A DNA stretch of 64,000 bases from Nitratidesulfovibrio termitidis HI1. Lineage in GTDB: Bacteria; Desulfobacterota; Desulfovibrionia; Desulfovibrionales; Desulfovibrionaceae. Position 1 is the first letter of the stretch; every line of letters begins with the position of its first letter. A program made the position numbers and the translations under genes. This document shows positions 1 to 62,245 of the stretch, piece after piece. Below the pieces are notes generated by a model. It was not told where the DNA came from, did not search any database, and worked only from the letters and a program-made list of their open reading frames with translations. The stretch covers positions 3,660,404 through 3,724,403 of the forward strand of contig NZ_KI632512.1 in the NCBI RefSeq assembly GCF_000504305.1, read 5' to 3'.

Positions 1-160
1 GCTCGCCTAACGGCTAAGGCTCGGTCGAATACGATAAGGGCGCGCTGCGGTCGCCATCCGTAATGCTCGAAGACTCGCATAACGGCTGCCGCACTCCCTC
101 ATGGCAGGCTCGTTTTCCTTGCCAACGAACGAAAATCTTGCGTTATAAACAGCCCCTAGG
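1..160. repeat. Palindromic 3'-end element, copy A (right part only)
   Basis: This is the right-hand part of the dispersed palindrome family described at 61929-62245; the left part lies outside the window. It holds one complete core hairpin at 58-85 (CCGTA, stem ATGC/GCAT, AACGG), the end of another core at 1-13, and the family's right arm, including CTCATGGCAGGC and GAAAATC. It runs into the ribosome-binding site of the next gene. The family assignment rests on direct comparison with the copies at 39096, 40142 and 61929. Confidence 0.75.
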
Positions 161-7477: not shown

Positions 7478-9283
7478 ATGCCCAGACAGGAACACATCCG
7501 CAATTTCAGCATCATCGCGCATATCGACCATGGCAAATCCACCCTGGCCGACCGTATCCTTGAGGTTACCGGGCTGGTCAGCGACCGCGAAAAGCGCGAC
7601 CAGTATCTGGACCGCATGGAGCTTGAGCGCGAGCGCGGCATCACCATCAAGGCCCAGTCGGTGCGCATCCCGTACACGGCCAAGGATGGCCGCAAGTACG
7701 TGCTGAACCTCATCGACACGCCCGGCCACGTGGACTTCAACTACGAGGTCTCGCGCTCGCTCGCCGCGTGCGAAGGGGCGCTGCTGGTTGTGGACGCCTC
7801 GCAGGGCGTGGAAGCCCAGACCCTGGCCAACGTGTATCTTGCGCTGGACCACAATCTGGAAGTCATTCCGGTCCTGAACAAGGTGGACCTGCCCAGCGCC
7901 GATGCAGACCGCGTGAAGCACGAGATCGAGGAAAGCATCGGCCTCGACTGCTCCGACGCCGTGGCCGTCAGCGCCAAGACCGGCCTGAACGTGGACAAGG
8001 TGCTGGAAGCCATCGTCGCGCGTCTGCCCGCGCCCGAAGGCAACCTGAACGCCCCGCTGAAGGCCCTGATCTTCGATTCCTGGTACGATTCGTATCAGGG
8101 CGTGGTGGTGCTGTTCCGCATCGTGGACGGCGTGCTGCGCAAGGGCGACCGCATCAAGCTGTTCGCCACCGAGCGCAGCTACGAAGTGATCCGCCTTGGG
8201 GTGTTCTCGCCCGAAATCGTGGACATGACCGAACTGGGTGCTGGCGAAGTGGGCTTTCTGTGCGCCAACATCAAGGAACTGGGCGACGCCAAGGTGGGCG
8301 ACACCATCACTCATGTGGACCGCCCCGCCGAAATACCCGTGGAAGGCTTCAAGGAAGTGCAGCCCATGGTGTTCTGCGGGCTGTACCCCACCGATTCCGC
8401 CGACTACGAACAGCTCAAGTACGCGCTGGAAAAGCTGCAGCTCAACGACGCGGCCTTCTCGTACGAGCCGGAAACCTCGCAGGCGCTGGGCTTCGGCTAC
8501 CGTTGCGGGTTCCTTGGCCTGTTGCACATGGAGATCATCCAGGAGCGGCTGGAGCGCGAATTTCAGGTGGAACTCATCGCCACCGCACCCTCGGTGATCT
8601 ACAAGATCGACACCGTGGACGGGAAGAAGAGCGACATCGACAACCCCTCCAAGCTCCCAGACCCCACCAAGATCGCCGCGCTGTACGAACCCTACGTGCG
8701 CATGGACATCCACGTGCCCAACGATTACGTGGGCAACGTGCTGAAGCTGTGCGAGGAAAAGCGCGGCATTCAGAAGAACATGGGGTACATCGCCTCCAAC
8801 CGCGTGGTCATCACCTACGAACTGCCGTTCGCCGAAATCGTGTTCGACTTCTTCGACCGGCTGAAGTCGGGCACCAAGGGGTACGCCTCGATGGACTACG
8901 AGTTCATCGACTACCGGCAGTCGGCCCTGGTGAAGCTGGACATCCTGATCAACGCCGAAGCCGTGGACGCGCTGGCCGTCATCGTGCACCGCGACAAGGC
9001 CTACCACTACGGCCGCGCGCTGGCGCTGAAGCTGAAGCGCACCATCCCGCGCCAGATGTTCGAGGTGGCCATCCAGGCGGCCATCGGGCAGAAGATCATT
9101 GCCCGCGAATCCATTTCCGCGCTGCGCAAGAACGTGACCGCAAAGTGCTACGGCGGGGATATTACCCGTAAGCGCAAGCTGTTGGAAAAGCAGAAGGAAG
9201 GCAAGAAGCGCATGAAGCGTATGGGCAACGTGGAGTTGCCGCAGGAGGCCTTCCTTGCCGCTCTCCAGGTCGGCGACGAATAA
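7478..9283 (+). CDS. lepA: Elongation factor 4 (LepA) GTPase
   Basis: A 601-residue translational GTPase that acts on the ribosome and is thought to help with back-translocation, stalled ribosomes or subunit biogenesis. The G motifs are all present: HIDHGKST near residue 14, DTPGHVDF near 80, NKVD near 134 and SAKTG near 168. Domains II and III and the LepA-specific C-terminal domain with its basic tail ([17 protein letters not shown]) follow. The start at 7478 gives the family's usual length; longer in-frame readings run into low-complexity DNA. The stop codon forms the beginning of a large palindrome. Confidence 0.97.
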
Positions 9284-9408
9284 TTTTGCGCCATGGGGGC
9301 AATGACTGCGTCAAACGGAGGAGCCGCTCGGGTCACGTACCAAAGAGTACGCTCCCCTCGCGGACTCCACCGTTTTCCTTGTCCTTGCCGCCCCTGCCGC
9401 AAAATTAT
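9280..9408. repeat. Palindromic 3'-end element, copy B (lepA)
   Basis: A 129-bp imperfect palindrome includes the lepA stop codon. The ends are ATAATTTTGCG (9280-9290) and CGCAAAATTAT (9398-9408). About 60 bp of each arm pair with occasional mismatches down to GTAC/GTAC around a CAAAGA loop. It lacks the CCGTA...AACGG core of the other copies. It probably folds as a very long 3' hairpin and may end lepA transcription. No gene is visible from here to 9810. Confidence 0.8.
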
Positions 9409-29217: not shown

Positions 29218-29260
29218 CCGAGTGCAGCGTGGCGTGAAGCCGAGTCGCCGTCGCGGGGTG

Positions 29261-29437
29261 CTACGAGCCGGGGGTGGGCATCTTGGAATCGATGTACGAG
29301 AAGGTGGAGCTGACCTTGGTGCCGAGCGCGGTGACGGCGGCAACGATGACGGCGGCGATGAGGGCGGCGATGAGGCCGTATTCCAGGGCGGTGGCGCCTT
29401 CTTCGTCACGGATCAGGGCGGTGATGGACTTCAGCAT
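29261..29437 (-). CDS. flp: Flp major pilin, copy nearest tadV
   Basis: A 58-residue Flp prepilin. The leader MLKSITALIRDEEG is cleaved before ATALEYGLIAALIAAVIVAA, the class IVb pilin signature with Glu and Tyr at the usual places; the mature pilin has 44 residues ending MPTPGS. AAAGGAG lies before the start. It is the third of three tandem pilin genes in transcription order. The mature sequence matches that of the middle copy, and the leader differs. Confidence 0.93.
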   Translation of the reverse strand: MLKSITALIRDEEGATALEYGLIAALIAAVIVAAVTALGTKVSSTFSYIDSKMPTPGS

Positions 29438-29478
29438 GATCCTACTCCTTTCGGGAATTTGTGCGATTATAAACGGGC

Positions 29479-29655
29479 CTACGAACCGGGGGTGGGCATC
29501 TTGGAATCGATGTACGAGAAGGTGGAGCTGACCTTGGTGCCGAGCGCGGTGACGGCGGCGACGATGACGGCGGCGATGAGGGCGGCGATGAGGCCGTATT
29601 CCAGGGCGGTAGCGCCTTCTTCATCATTGATCAGGCGGGCGACGATCTTCGACAT
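29479..29655 (-). CDS. flp: Flp major pilin, middle copy
   Basis: A 58-residue Flp prepilin with leader MSKIVARLINDEEG and mature sequence from ATALEYGL to MPTPGS, the same as in the copy at 29261-29437. AGGAG precedes the start. A longer in-frame reading to 29961 runs through the upstream pilin in a wrong frame and is not credible. Confidence 0.93.
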   Translation of the reverse strand: MSKIVARLINDEEGATALEYGLIAALIAAVIVAAVTALGTKVSSTFSYIDSKMPTPGS

Positions 29656-29707
29656 GGCTGTTCTCCTGTGATTCGTTCGTTGATGTTTGCTGCGGTCGCG
29701 CCGTGGG

Positions 29708-29884
29708 CTACGAGCCGGGGGTGGGCATCTTGGAATCGATGTACGAGAAGGTGGCGCTGACCTTGGTGCCGAGTGCGGTGACGGCGGCGACGATGACGGC
29801 GGCGATGAGGGCGGCGATGAGGCCGTATTCCAGGGCGGTGGCGCCTTCTTCGTCACGGAACAGGGTGGTGATGCGTTCAAACAT
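29708..29884 (-). CDS. flp: Flp major pilin, promoter-proximal copy
   Basis: A 58-residue Flp prepilin with leader MFERITTLFRDEEG and the same mature pilin as the other two except KVSA in place of KVSS. AGGAGAG precedes the start. It is the first gene behind the sigma-54 promoter at 29944-29961 and therefore probably the first gene of the whole tad transcript. Confidence 0.93.
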   Translation of the reverse strand: MFERITTLFRDEEGATALEYGLIAALIAAVIVAAVTALGTKVSATFSYIDSKMPTPGS

Positions 29885-29943
29885 GGTGTCTCTCCTGCGT
29901 GGGGGCTTTGGGGTTGGCCGGGGGGCCGTTGTTGCCTCCCATT

Positions 29944-33883: not shown

Positions 33884-34507
33884 ATGCAGCTTGGCCGCAT
33901 GGCGCGCAGCGCCCTTCGTCCCATGATCGTCGGCGCCGACATAGAGGTCTTTCGCCAGCACTGCGGCGGCAGCCTTGGCGGGCTGTTCCACTGCATGCGC
34001 TACCTTGGGCCGCGCCTGCTGTGGGATGGCGGGACGCAGGAGTTCGTGGATGAGGCGGGCGCAGTTATGGGGGACGTGGGGGACGTGGTGGCCGTGGCGG
34101 GCCTGGATGCACTGGCCGGGGAACTGGCCGTGTTGCGCGATGCCGTGGGCGCGGCGCTGGCGGGCAGCGCGTCCGCCGCCGTTCCCGTGTCCATGGACGG
34201 CACCCTGCTGCGCGGGCAGGACGGCTCTGCCCATTATCGCATCTGCGACCTGATCCATCCGGACCTGCCGGTGTGGCGGCAGGTGAACCTGCTGGCGGAC
34301 CTGTTCTGCCAGCTGGAACAGCGGGTACCCCACGTACGCCCGGTGCCGCACGAGCATACCCCGGCCATGAAGACGGAAACCCGCGTGGCCCGCTGGCTGG
34401 CCACCTGGAAACGCCCCGGATGCGGCGGCGTGCTGCTGAAACGCCCCGAACTGGTCTATGCACCCGGACGGGAGACGCCAGACGCGTGCGGCGTCGTCAT
34501 GCGTTGA
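33884..34507 (+). CDS. Conserved-looking hypothetical protein
   Basis: A 207-residue protein I do not recognise, with no signal peptide or clear membrane helix. It contains MRYLGPRLLWDGGTQEFVDE, a helical middle, and an ICDLIHPDLPVWRQVNLLADLFCQLEQRVPHVRPVPHEH segment with clustered His and Trp. The start at 33884 has AGGAG six bases upstream; the ATG at 33851 has none. The last eight codons and the stop lie inside the first unit of a 26-bp tandem repeat, so the C-terminus may have been replaced by repeat sequence. Confidence 0.68.
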   Translation: MQLGRMARSALRPMIVGADIEVFRQHCGGSLGGLFHCMRYLGPRLLWDGGTQEFVDEAGAVMGDVGDVVAVAGLDALAGELAVLRDAVGAALAGSASAAVPVSMDGTLLRGQDGSAHYRICDLIHPDLPVWRQVNLLADLFCQLEQRVPHVRPVPHEHTPAMKTETRVARWLATWKRPGCGGVLLKRPELVYAPGRETPDACGVVMR

Positions 34508-34612
34508 CCGCGTGTAGCGTCGTCATGCGGTAATCGCGTGTAGCGTCGTCATGCGGTAATCGCGTGTAGCGTCGTCATGCGGTAATCGCGTGCGGCGTCG
34601 TCATGTGTTGAA
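34483..34612. repeat. 26-bp tandem repeat, five units
   Basis: Units begin at 34483, 34509, 34535, 34561 and 34587, each starting CGCGTG. The middle three are identical and the outer two share changes (GCGGC, GTTGA). There are no spacers, so it is not CRISPR. It starts inside the 3' end of the preceding gene. The 34613-35015 stretch beyond it, upstream of livJ, shows no gene and no clear promoter. Confidence 0.9.
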
Positions 34613-38332: not shown

Positions 38333-39096
38333 GCCTGCTTGCGCTGCGCAACCTGACCAAGACCTTCGGCGGCCTGGTGGCCGTGAACAACGTGACCTTC
38401 GACGTGGCCGAAGGGGCCATCGTCGGGCTCATCGGCCCCAACGGGGCGGGCAAGACCACGGTGTTCAACCTGATCACCGGCAACTACAAGCCCGATTCCG
38501 GCGACATCTTCTTCGATGGCCGCACCATCAAGGGGTTGCCCACCCATCGCATCGTGCAGCAGGGCATTGCCCGCACCTTCCAGACCATCCGGCTGTTCCA
38601 GAACATGTCGGTCATCGAGAACGTGCTGGCGGGCTGCCACTGTCGCATGCAGTCGGGCATGCTGACGGCCATGCTGCGTACCCCGGCCCAGCGCGCGGAA
38701 GAAAGCCGCGCCCTTTTGCGCGCCACGCGCGAACTGGAGTTCGTGGGGCTGGCCGACGAGCACGCCAACCTGGCCAGGAACCTGTCCTATGGCAACCAGC
38801 GCCTGCTGGAGATCGCCCGCGCTCTCGCCACCGACCCGCGCTTCATCATTCTGGATGAACCCGCCGGTGGCATGAACGACCAGGAAACGGCGGCGCTCAT
38901 CGACACCATTCGCGCCATCCGCGACCGGGGCATCACCGTGCTGCTCATCGAGCACGACATGAGCCTGGTCATGAAGGTGTGCGAGAAACTGGTGGTGCTG
39001 GAATACGGGGCGCTGCTGGCCGAGGGCGTGCCAGCGGCCATCAAGGATGATCCGAGGGTGATCGAGGCGTATCTCGGCGTCGATACCGACGATTAG
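38329..39096 (+). CDS. livG: Branched-chain amino acid ABC transporter ATPase LivG
   Basis: A 255-residue ATPase with Walker A GPNGAGKT near residue 36, the LivG-type signature LSYGNQRLLEIARAL, Walker B FIILDEPAGG and the switch His in LLIEHDMSLV. It overlaps livM by 4 bp. Its stop codon is the first base of a palindromic element that separates it from livF. Confidence 0.95.
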   Translation: MSLLALRNLTKTFGGLVAVNNVTFDVAEGAIVGLIGPNGAGKTTVFNLITGNYKPDSGDIFFDGRTIKGLPTHRIVQQGIARTFQTIRLFQNMSVIENVLAGCHCRMQSGMLTAMLRTPAQRAEESRALLRATRELEFVGLADEHANLARNLSYGNQRLLEIARALATDPRFIILDEPAGGMNDQETAALIDTIRAIRDRGITVLLIEHDMSLVMKVCEKLVVLEYGALLAEGVPAAIKDDPRVIEAYLGVDTDD

Positions 39097-39293
39097 AATC
39101 CGCCCCCGAAAGGTCCTTTTGCCCTCTGGCTGCGTCAGGCTCGTCCCGTGCGAAGGTCGAATATGAAAGAATACGCGTTGCGGTCGCCATCCGTAGGACT
39201 CATGAAGCATTCGTCCAACGGCTGCCGCACTCCCTCCGCCCGGAACTCGCCTTCCTTGCCAGAGAACAAAAATCCTCTTTCGGGAACGGATTC
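39096..39293. repeat. Palindromic 3'-end element, copy C (livG)
   Basis: A 198-bp imperfect palindrome begins at the last base of the livG stop codon. The ends are GAATCCG (39096-39102) and CGGATTC (39287-39293), and about 60 bp of each arm match. The core hairpin at 39191-39221 is CCGTA, stem GGAC/GTCC, TC/TC internal loop, ATG/CAT, AACGG. It interrupts the livJHMGF cluster before livF. The remainder of the 330-bp gap holds no gene. Confidence 0.85.
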
Positions 39294-39426: not shown

Positions 39427-40141
<715 letters not shown>

Positions 40142-40143
<2 letters not shown>

Positions 40144-40341
40144 GGGCATGCCTTCAAATTGTCTTTTCGCCCGTTGGCGTCGTCAAACTTCGCCTGCCAT
40201 GGCTTTGCTGTCCTTATCCGTAGGGTTCGCTTCGCTCACCAACGGCTAAGGCTCGGTCGAATACGAGAAGAGTATACTCCCTCATGGCAGGCTCGTTTTC
40301 CTCGCCAACGAGCGAAAATCCTAATTTGAAGCCACGCCCCT
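40142..40341. repeat. Palindromic 3'-end element, copy D (livF)
   Basis: A 200-bp imperfect palindrome begins inside the livF stop codon. The ends are AGGGGC/GCCCCT; each arm of about 60 bp includes TTCAAATT, GTTGGCG and GCCTGCCATG with their complements on the other side. The core at 40218-40245 has CCGTA, GGT/ACC, TC/TC, GC-TTC-GC and AACGG. About 80 bp of the centre are nearly identical to copy E. Confidence 0.88.
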
Positions 40342-40382: not shown

Positions 40383-40412
40383 CAAAAAGGCGCTCCGGAA
40401 ACGGGGCGCCTT
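40383..40412 (-). terminator. Terminator of the receiver-domain gene
   Basis: AAGGCGC/GCGCCTT arms (40387-40393 and 40406-40412) are followed on the minus strand by TTTTTGTTTG. It lies about 30 bp after the stop of the 40847-40443 gene. Confidence 0.85.
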
Positions 40413-49367: not shown

Positions 49368-49578
49368 CAGGCGGAATTGCCCTGACGGCATCTGCCGCAG
49401 GGACAATGCGGTACGGGCGGGGCAGGTGGGCTTTGCTGGTTATGTGGCCGTGCGGAATGGGAGCGGACTGTTTGCGCGAACGGTGTATTTTTTATTTGAT
49501 GTTAACGTGTTACGACACCGCTTGCGTTTCCTCCGGCAACCGGATACACCCCCAGTCACGCTTGGTTTCGGATGACGA

Positions 49579-49762
49579 CAGCAGGAGAGACCCCAGCCGG
49601 CGGCAAACGGCATGGGGCGCCGACGAAGTGAATCTTTCAGGCGAAAGGACTGCTGCCCGACGAACCTCTGGAGAGCCTCCATCCGTGGAGCACCGAAGGA
49701 GCAAACCGCCCGTGTCCTCGCAGGGAACCGGGGCGGCGAAACTCTCAGGTAAAAGGACAGAG
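49579..49762 (+). promoter_or_regulatory. Tandem glycine riboswitch
   Basis: Two consecutive glycine aptamers. Aptamer 1 (49579-49655) is closed by CAGCAG/CTGCTG and contains GGAGAGA and TCTTTCAGGCGAAAGGAC. Aptamer 2 (49666-49762) is closed by CTCTG/CAGAG and contains GGAGAG, GCACCGAAGGAGCAA and ACTCTCAGGTAAAAGGACAGAG-type sequence. These are the conserved gcvT-motif segments. A ten-base linker joins the aptamers, as in cooperative versions. A possible promoter (TTGCGC at 49472, TTTGAT at 49495) lies upstream. No plus-strand gene follows. Confidence 0.9.
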
Positions 49763-60418: not shown

Positions 60419-61930
60419 ATGAAGGTCTATCTCATCGGCGCGGGGCCCGGCGACCCCGGCCTGCTCACGCTCAAGGGCAAGCGCATCCTCGAATCGGCGG
60501 ACGTCATCGTCTACGACTACCTCGCCAACGACGCGTTCCTCGCCTACGCCAAGCCCGGCGCGGAAATCATCTACGTGGGCAAGAAGGGCGGCGACCACAC
60601 CCTGTCGCAGGACGGCATCAACCGCCTGATCGTGGACAAGGCCAAGGAAGGCAAGACCGTGGCCCGCCTGAAGGGCGGCGATCCGTACATGTTCGGGCGC
60701 GGCGGCGAAGAGGCCGAAGAACTTCTGGACGCGGGCGTTCCCTTCGAGGAAGTGCCCGGCGTCACCAGCGCCGTGGCCGGTCCCGCCTACGCGGGCATCC
60801 CGCTGACGCACCGCTCCTACTCCTCGTCCGTGTCGTTCATCACCGGGCACGAAGACCCCACCAAGCCCGGCTCGGTGCACAACTGGAAGGCCCTGGCCGA
60901 CAGCGCCAGCACCCTGGTCTTCTTCATGGGCATGAAGAACCTGCCCGAAATCTCGCGCAAGCTCATCGAGGCGGGCATGCCCGCCGACACCCCGGCGGCA
61001 CTGGTGCACTGGGGCACCACCGCCCGGCACCGCAGTCTGGTGGCCACCATCGCCACCCTGCCGCAAGAAGGGCCCAAGCACGGCTTCACCAATCCCTCGC
61101 TCATCGTGGTGGGGGGGGTGGTCAACCTGCACGACCGCCTGAACTGGTTCGAGCAGAAGCCCCTGCTGGGCAAGGGCGTGGTGGTCACCCGCGCGCGCGA
61201 GCAGGCCAGCGGCCTGGCCGAGGCCCTGCGCGAACTGGGCGCCGACGTGGTGCAGTTTCCCACCATCGAGATCATTCCCCTTGCCGACTACGCCCCGGTG
61301 GATGCGGCCATCCGCGACCTGCCCGGCTATGACTGGGTGGTGTTCACCTCGGTCAACGGCGTGAAGCACTTCTGGAGCCGCCTTGCCGCGTGCGGGCAGG
61401 ATTCGCGCGCGTTGGCCGGGCGCAAGGTGGCCGCCATCGGCCCCGCCACCGCCGATGTGCTGCGTACCAAGGGCATCGAACCGGACTTCATCCCCGAAAA
61501 GTACGTGGCCGAAGGCGTGGTGGAAGGCATGCTGGCGCGCGGCATGGGCGGCAAGCGCGTGTTGCTGCCCCGCGCCCGCGAGGCGCGCGAGGTGCTGCCC
61601 GACGAACTGCGCAAGGCCGGGGCCGTGGTGGACGTGCTGCCGGTGTACGAAACCGTGCCCAGCACCGCCCGCAAGGACGACGTGCTGGCCCGCATGCAGG
61701 AAGGGCGCATCCATTGCGTCACTTTCGGTTCGTCGTCCACGGTGGACAACTTCTTTGCGCTGGTGCCCGTGGACATGGTGAAGGCTCACCCCGAGATGAA
61801 GCTGGCCTGCATCGGTCCCGTTACCCGCAAGACGCTGGAAGGCTACGGTCTGACCTGCCACATCCAGCCGGAGGATTTCACCATTCCTGCGCTGGTTGAC
61901 GAGTTGGTCAGGCGTCTGCCCGAGATGTAG
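60419..61930 (+). CDS. cobA-hemD: Bifunctional uroporphyrinogen-III methyltransferase / uroporphyrinogen-III synthase
   Basis: A 503-residue fusion. Residues 1-245 are the SAM-dependent uroporphyrinogen-III methyltransferase (GAGPGDPGLLTLKG, VARLKGGDPYMFGRGGEE, GVTSAVAGPAYAGIPLTHR), which makes precorrin-2. Residues 255-503 are the uroporphyrinogen-III synthase (GVVVTRAREQASGLAEAL, WVVFTSVNGVKHFW, VTFGSSSTVDNFF). Such fusions are characteristic of Desulfovibrio and feed siroheme for sulfite reductase, cobalamin and the alternative heme pathway. GGAGGA precedes the start. The stop codon opens a palindromic element. Confidence 0.96.
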   Translation: MKVYLIGAGPGDPGLLTLKGKRILESADVIVYDYLANDAFLAYAKPGAEIIYVGKKGGDHTLSQDGINRLIVDKAKEGKTVARLKGGDPYMFGRGGEEAEELLDAGVPFEEVPGVTSAVAGPAYAGIPLTHRSYSSSVSFITGHEDPTKPGSVHNWKALADSASTLVFFMGMKNLPEISRKLIEAGMPADTPAALVHWGTTARHRSLVATIATLPQEGPKHGFTNPSLIVVGGVVNLHDRLNWFEQKPLLGKGVVVTRAREQASGLAEALRELGADVVQFPTIEIIPLADYAPVDAAIRDLPGYDWVVFTSVNGVKHFWSRLAACGQDSRALAGRKVAAIGPATADVLRTKGIEPDFIPEKYVAEGVVEGMLARGMGGKRVLLPRAREAREVLPDELRKAGAVVDVLPVYETVPSTARKDDVLARMQEGRIHCVTFGSSSTVDNFFALVPVDMVKAHPEMKLACIGPVTRKTLEGYGLTCHIQPEDFTIPALVDELVRRLPEM

Positions 61931-62245
61931 GGCTGTCCCTAAATTGTCCTTTCGCCCGTTGGCGTCCGACCCGAAGGGCGCGAAGCGTGGCCGTTGGGCG
62001 AGCTTGCGAGCCCTACGGACATCGTGCGCAACGAGGTCAAACTTCGCCTGCCATGGCTTTGCTGTCCTTATCCGTAGGGTTCGCTTCGCTCACCAACGGC
62101 TAAGGCTCGGTCAAATACGAGAAGAGCGCGCTGCGGTCCTCATCCGTAAGATTCGCTTCGCTCACCTAACGGCTGAGGCATATTCCCTCATGGCAGGCTT
62201 GTTTTCCTTGCCAACGAACGAAAATCCTAATTTAGAGACAGCCCT
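61929..62245. repeat. Palindromic 3'-end element, copy E (cobA-hemD), longest copy
   Basis: A 317-bp imperfect palindrome begins in the cobA-hemD stop codon. The ends are AGGGCTGTC..CTAAATT and AATTTAG..GACAGCCCT. It holds three core hairpins: 61991-62018 on the minus strand (stem GGGC/GCCC), 62072-62098 (GGT/ACC) and 62144-62172 (AGAT/ACCT). Compared with copy D it has an extra module of about 75 bp inserted after GTTGGCGT and another core near the end. It shows the family to be modular. No gene lies between it and 62450. Confidence 0.9.

Follow-up and report, generated by a model that had tools for sequence, protein, structure and literature searches.

A family of hairpin repeats flush with stop codons in Nitratidesulfovibrio termitidis and related bacteria

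The genome of Nitratidesulfovibrio termitidis HI1 carries a dispersed family of long hairpin repeats that begin at the stop codons of genes. The family was studied starting from a stretch of 64,000 nucleotides of this genome (RefSeq assembly GCF_000504305.1, contig NZ_KI632512.1, positions 3,660,404 to 3,724,403), here called the window, in which a preliminary description had placed four imperfect palindromes behind lepA, livG, livF and cobA-hemD; all four were found at those places. The description of the family as mobile hairpins flush with stop codons is well supported. The interpretation that we favour, and to which we give not quite an even chance, is that the elements are mobile non-coding hairpin repeats of ~130-320 bp, placed directly behind stop codons and almost all oriented in the sense direction.

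Stop-codon anchoring and anatomy of the family

The 4.26 Mb genome was searched with a covariance model made from 14 minimal copies, and BLAST was used alongside. The model gave at least 99 matches at E <= 0.1 (among the best 150 of 1568 candidates) and BLAST at least 84 pieces (among the best 40 of 115 candidates), and the merged set comprises 104 copies with recognisable cores, forming one dispersed family. This number is a lower bound, as 10 model matches without anchors were excluded and scans for core halves contained at least six further copies. The core-half patterns matched 53 + 46 times, compared with 2 + 1 times for control patterns.

Using gene calls from a small gene finder, a copy was counted as anchored when a same-strand stop codon ended 9-25 nt before the fixed core. 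A same-strand gene precedes 98 of the 104 copies, and in 95 of them the stop ends within this interval, most often at a distance of 16-18 nt (61 of the 95 anchored copies) or 9-11 nt (19 of the 95). The anchored stops are TAG in 81 cases, TAA in 9 and TGA in 5, compared with 117 TAG, 71 TGA and 42 TAA among the 230 other genes in the fetched stretches. The base preceding TAG is mixed (C 41, G 25, T 11, A 4), and no motif was found upstream of the anchored stops, where only codon periodicity was seen. Pairing between the arms is 0.83-0.91 over the first seven letters that follow the stop; it is 0.52-0.69 within the stop, and upstream of it falls to ~0.43-0.58, the background of this gapped measure.

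The same anchoring is seen in other genomes. Outside HI1, where the test used same-strand open reading frames (ORFs) of at least 100 codons and a 26-nt window, an ORF ends at the element start in 77 of 112 matches versus 39 of 829 shifted windows, and at the other end of the element in 11 of 112. A looser test in other families of the phylum (61-nt window, ORFs of 80 codons) gave an ORF ending at the element start in 21 of 38 copies versus 27 of 207 shifted positions. The anchoring on stop codons that had been proposed from four copies is thus borne out, and the copies are not scattered without regard to stops.

Core-to-core length ranges from 110 to 290 bp in the 104 copies, with classes near 111, 162, 181, 212-218, 230 and 282 bp, the longer classes carrying extra nested hairpin modules in the apical part. 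From the outside in, the element consists of the outer arms, a loop (GTCC/ATCCT), a helix (TTTYG/CRAAA), a 2x2 loop (CC/AA) and a second helix, which reads CGTTGGC/GCCAACG in 52 copies, CGCTGGC/GCCAGCG in 12, CTCTGCC/GGCAGAG in 11 and CTCCGGC/GCCGGAG in 6, other versions being rarer. The inner hairpin has a conserved tip (GGTC..AAGAG..CTCC) and TTCCTTG on its 3' side. Watson-Crick combinations make up 94-99% at the 12 pairs of the core helices, with G.T in six cells altogether, and the two CC/AA positions of the loop lack pairing in 86 and 91 of the 104 copies; these percentages are inflated by the choice of copies through scores that reward core likeness and pairing. In an alignment across the phylum, made of copies found by the model only and itself fitted to the model, 40 of 44 predicted pairs show changes on both sides. 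The core thus keeps specific mismatched loops, with helices changing almost solely between Watson-Crick pairs. Because a process that only perfects palindromes would erase the loops, they are either selected or needed for the spread of the element.

The copies in the window, with the one behind cobA-hemD given part by part, are as follows.

61928..61930, + strand: TAG stop codon of cobA-hemD (gene 60419-61930), anchor of the element
61929..61945, + strand: 5' outer arm of the cobA-hemD copy, 17-nt inverted repeat, 94% complementary to the 3' arm
61946..61963, + strand: 5' core of the cobA-hemD copy, GTCC-TTTCG-CC-CGTTGGC
61964..62209, + strand: apical part of the cobA-hemD copy, nested hairpin modules and inner hairpin
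62210..62228, + strand: 3' core of the cobA-hemD copy, GCCAACG-AA-CGAAA-ATCCT
62229..62245, + strand: 3' outer arm of the cobA-hemD copy, inverted repeat of the 5' arm
40142..40341, + strand: livF copy; TAG stop 40141-40143, arms 40142-40160 and 40323-40341 (19 nt, 89% complementary), core 40161-40322
39096..39293, + strand: livG copy; TAG stop 39094-39096, arms 39096-39112 and 39277-39293 (17 nt, 88% complementary), core 39113-39276
9280..9408, + strand: lepA copy; TAA stop 9281-9283, arms 9280-9297 and 9391-9408 (18 nt, 89% complementary)
1..158, + strand: fifth copy, truncated where the window begins; core at genome positions 3660331-3660542, then the 3' arm
40387..40412, + strand: separate hairpin with T-rich DNA after it, downstream of the livF element, read as an ordinary terminator

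The fold of the cobA-hemD copy beats 100 of 100 dinucleotide shuffles (z -5.8). The lepA copy belongs to a short divergent subfamily and stands outside the set of 104, and the 5' end and stop codon of the fifth copy lie beyond the left edge of the window. Nested palindromic modules (ATCCGTA..AACGGCT) occur within the longer copies at ~40201-40251 and 62050-62165 and look like a second repeated hairpin having variable arms of its own. The product of cobA-hemD has the Pfam domains TP_methylase and HEM4, a methylase-HemD fusion, and lepA is likewise identified by Pfam. The products of livG and livF are ABC-transporter ATPases, one of them with a branched-chain amino-acid domain; these two gene names are those of the preliminary description, and Pfam names the domains only.

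Turnover at orthologous sites and pairing of the arms

The occupancy of 24 HI1 sites (blocks) was compared in five relatives. Of the resulting 99 orthologous places, 45 hold an element recognised by its anchors and 54 do not, the latter being a mixture of empty sites, stubs with a deleted interior (blocks 3, 9 and 16) and variants missed by the anchors (blocks 7 and 19). Among co-occupied pairs the arms or arm lengths differ in 66 of 104 and the arms are common in 38, and at livF three arm types occur among seven genomes. In the empty alleles of blocks 2, 13 and 18 the stop falls at the same codon as in the filled alleles, and the element therefore brings no new stop. Empty and differently occupied orthologous sites support the earlier suggestion of a mobile module. 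For the companion idea, insertion into terminator loops, no case was seen at the aligned sites, and the terminator downstream of the block 6 site is intact. In block 9, the deletion remnant of relative G006 is the reverse complement of the left arm of HI1, as if the hairpin had flipped ahead of the loss of its interior.

At aligned empty sites both arms are absent as a rule. Two exceptions show rewriting of the arms. The right arm of lepA in relative G001 is a sequence that lies further downstream in other species, and the left arm matches the right arm up to the stop, which is TAG in G001 versus TAA in seven others; in block 20, two arm types likewise exchange with the downstream flank. Flank copying is also possible at livG, where the alleles of G003 and G004 keep CGGATTC. 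The proposal that one flank is copied as an inverted repeat thus fits lepA of G001 and block 20 and perhaps livG, and as a general origin of the arms it was rejected, both arms being missing at the other aligned empty sites.

Pairing of the arms is a property of the individual copy. Among the 104 copies the mean pairing score is 13.2 for a copy's own arms, versus 5.8 for arms swapped at random and 3.9 for arms swapped between dissimilar copies. Because many copies have arms in common, a copy's own 3' arm ranks first of the 104 in only 31 cases and within the top three in 47. Of the 104 copies, 37 match the arm consensus GGGGCTGTTTCCAAATT and its complement (at least 12 of 17 letters) in both arms, and 52 do so in one arm or both. 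The arms had been described as unrelated between copies, which holds in so far as 260 distinct elements fall into 109 arm clusters and fails for the 37 copies that follow the consensus on both sides. They had also been described as paired in every copy; in 91 of the 104 HI1 copies the arms include 6 or more consecutive ungapped positions with >=70% Watson-Crick pairs, and some orthologues are chimeric or decayed (block 22).

The kind of change seen in the arms bears on how the pairing is kept. The arms of HI1 contain 30 G.T versus 73 A.C combinations; over all genomes the counts are 55 versus 124 unweighted and 24.6 versus 32.9 when weighted by cluster, and in the phylum rows they are 64 versus 60 in all 55 rows and 52 versus 60 in the 52 distinct ones, in a test of limited power in which control terminator hairpins gave only 22 versus 17. 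Orthologues with the same arms differ by 56 one-sided and 3 two-sided cell changes (pairwise, non-independent counts), and one of the two-sided changes keeps the pair. Since there is no G.T preference and the changes are mostly one-sided, the pairing seems to date from the making or rewriting of a copy and to decay afterwards, and selection on RNA structure, as originally offered to explain the paired arms, is weakened. Monttinen and Loytynoja 2022 (PMC8794818) describe template switching as a means to create and repair perfect stems in one step, giving compensatory changes without wobble intermediates; the hairpins there are in rRNA and microRNA genes, whereas those described here are mobile bacterial repeats.

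In the model that we propose, a copy would arrive as a hairpin, a form of arrival suggested because both arms are missing at most aligned empty sites. Some enzyme or process would recognise the single strand in its folded state from the core loops and join it directly 3' of an existing stop codon. The arms would be complementary because template switching copies one of them from the other, either when the element is first made or in a later rewriting, and would decay one side at a time after copying. In the mRNA, the hairpin would act on ribosome release and 3' trimming, not on transcription termination.

Alternative explanations and known repeat families

The best placed of the alternatives, though in our judgement an unlikely one, is a relative of the repetitive extragenic palindromes (REPs) or of miniature inverted-repeat transposable elements (MITEs), with a transposase target or foot that contains TAG, the anchoring then being the result of this motif together with purifying selection. 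The high share of TAG among anchored stops would fit (81 of 95, against 117 of 230 other genes), as would the presence/absence variation across orthologous sites and nested inserts reminiscent of Correia elements. In other families, repeats of at least 7 nt occur in 19 of 38 copies versus 23.7% in shuffles, and in 6 of the 38 the borders of the element carry 7-11 nt direct repeats, three with TAG, the borders having been judged after viewing. However, 14 of the 95 anchored stops are TAA or TGA, the stop type can change along with the arms in the same gene (lepA, livG, block 24), the position of the stop is the same whether an allele is filled or empty, and only 9 of the 104 copies are away from a same-strand stop. 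The mixed base before TAG likewise argues against a fixed foot.

The nearest precedent is the GTAG REPs. They are described (PMC3733652) as dispersed imperfect palindromes near or downstream of genes, with a GTAG end that often supplies the TAG stop of the flanking ORF; mismatches near the loop are important when the REP-associated tyrosine transposase (RAYT) cleaves the single strand in its folded form. The present elements are also dispersed imperfect palindromes with TAG at most anchored stops, but they differ in size, GTAG foot and RAYT. REPs measure 20-40 bp, compared with 110-290 bp from core to core plus arms here; there is no fixed G before TAG; and a search for the RAYT domain (Y1_Tnp, PF01797) gave no match in the genome of HI1 and one partial match each in two of seven other genomes of the genus. 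They further differ in having one orientation and a stop that lies at the same codon in empty alleles.

Palindromic repeats of more similar length (~107-168 bp) are ERIC/IRU, YPAL/RU-2, Correia/NEMIS and RUP, and the available part of the source (PMC2229807) mentions a 50 bp internal insert in Correia, co-expression of ERIC and YPAL with upstream genes, and empty and filled sites of YPAL. Their palindromic build, the insert of Correia and the empty and filled sites of YPAL resemble the present family; stop-codon anchoring is not described for them in that part of the source, and most have TA termini. The HI1 copies show no duplication beyond control. Of the traits of classical MITEs, terminal inverted repeats are present in 91 of the 104 copies, and mobility is indicated by the site comparison, which is unpolarised. 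Integron attC sites, by way of comparison, carry R boxes (RYYYAAC/GTTRRRY) at their ends.

Rather unlikely, too, is a cis-acting RNA hairpin of the 3' untranslated region that stabilises the mRNA or tunes release and is maintained by sense-strand selection with compensatory mutation of the arms. The sense orientation, the exact start at the stop, the conserved unpaired letters and the widespread both-side changes are what such an RNA would display, and structure, covariation and conserved loop letters are shared with Rfam families. Weighing on the other side are the lack of a sense-strand wobble preference in the arms (with the weak control given above), the 56 one-sided versus 3 two-sided changes in same-arm orthologues and the absence of the element from many orthologous sites. 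Apart from glycine riboswitches, no Rfam match at gathering score was found in the window, and the two copies tested gave only weak, chance-like matches below threshold.

Something of a long shot is the idea that the stop codon itself, of any kind and in frame, is the landing site, with insertion coupled to the mRNA or the terminating ribosome; the mobile element would be carried as a hairpin and its copy-specific arms written at insertion. Such a coupling might involve RNA, or else DNA left exposed in the wake of coupled transcription and translation.

Giant transcription terminators, one of the roles raised in the preliminary description, are very improbable. The elements lie 3' of genes and have a GC-rich inner hairpin followed by TTGTTTTCC, but none of 94 elements has the intrinsic-terminator signature (GC-rich stem then T tract) by the rule used, and an intrinsic terminator was rejected on this ground. 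The next gene lies on the same strand in 70 cases and is convergent in 24, equal to the window background of 35 to 12. A separate terminator-like hairpin follows within 240 nt downstream in 10 of the 94 (3 of 70 with a same-strand next gene, 7 of 24 with a convergent one), the corresponding numbers for genes without an element being 7 of 154 and 21 of 59, and in the liv cluster as well as in a cluster of phage head genes, copies separate neighbouring genes of the same strand, as judged from gene order. The start of the hairpin coincides with the position of the terminating ribosome, which must open it, and we infer that ribosome release or 3' trimming is likely affected. In a 2015 report, REP hairpins within ~15 nt of a stop codon reportedly stalled ribosomes. 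Chance palindromes or an assembly artefact have next to no probability, given the occurrence of the family in all eight searched genomes of the genus and in 38 of 395 of the phylum, the z of -5.8 and the pattern controls (2 + 1 versus 53 + 46).

Several points weigh against the reading that we prefer, that of mobile hairpin repeats joined behind existing stops. Nine of the 104 HI1 copies are away from any same-strand stop, and in other families an ORF also ends at the far end of the element in 14 of 38 copies. The selection of copies that inflates the core percentages belongs here as well. No target-site duplication beyond control was found, repeats of at least 7 nt occurring in 16 of 95 HI1 copies versus 13.7% of shuffled pairs. 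Neither a transposase nor an autonomous copy was found, paired core halves being at most ~310 bp apart, in a search of the HI1 genome that covered the listed pairs of core halves, several 5' halves having no listed partner. The stubs show that losses happen, and presence and absence are unpolarised by an outgroup. Any such process would also have to find stop codons of all three kinds. Finally, the GTAG-REP precedent slightly lowers the odds of this reading and of the one in which the stop codon itself is the landing site.

Distribution and significance

The element is present in all eight genomes of the genus that were searched, with at least 49-73 matches each among the best 78 candidates. 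One search of 39 genomes gave matches in 15 and none in 24, and the distribution outside the genus is patchy, since 24 of these 39 lack matches. Matching records include Nitratidesulfovibrio liaohensis, N. oxamicus, Desulfovibrio sp. A2 and further Desulfovibrio metagenome-assembled genomes (MAGs); a few matches fall in MAGs labelled Betaproteobacteria and Clostridia, which are possibly mis-binned, and one MAG contains 116 matches. In a shallow sample of the phylum, in which the best seven candidates per genome were scored, at least 38 of 395 genomes match at E <= 1e-6, HI1 included. Two viral contigs also match, one of them with portal, head and connector genes, and on this phage contig a copy lies directly behind the TAG of a major-head-protein gene.

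Some loci of the phylum have a more elaborate organization. At locus L443 (G203:C1 14611-15377), from another genus of the family, a head-to-tail array lies behind one stop codon, with five model matches at a period of ~152 nt, three of which were recovered in a second search. In several other families (L424-L463) the 3' flank carries a further palindrome, and sequence of the 5' border recurs there in direct orientation, e.g. CTAAATAG in L425 and TATTTAG in L446, which suggests a longer ancestral mobile unit.

Other repeats and structures in the window comprise a pair of adjoining glycine riboswitch aptamers (49572-49762), a 198-nt unit present three times in tandem at 87-90% identity (29252-29896), each copy of which overlaps one short predicted ORF on the - strand, and about five tandem 26-nt units (CGCGTGTAGCGTCGTCATGCGGTAAT) at 34483-34612.

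No published description of this family was found among the records listed in a search of the literature, in a library lacking most subscription journals. If the interpretation is correct, an unnamed hairpin repeat, reaching more than 100 copies per genome in one phylum, would mark gene ends to the nucleotide, which raises the question of how a mobile element distinguishes a stop codon among trinucleotides. Covariation of the kind seen here could come from palindrome copying rather than from selection on RNA, a reason for caution in the discovery of RNA motifs. Full and empty stops of the same gene in sister species would constitute a natural experiment on translation termination and on the formation of mRNA 3' ends.
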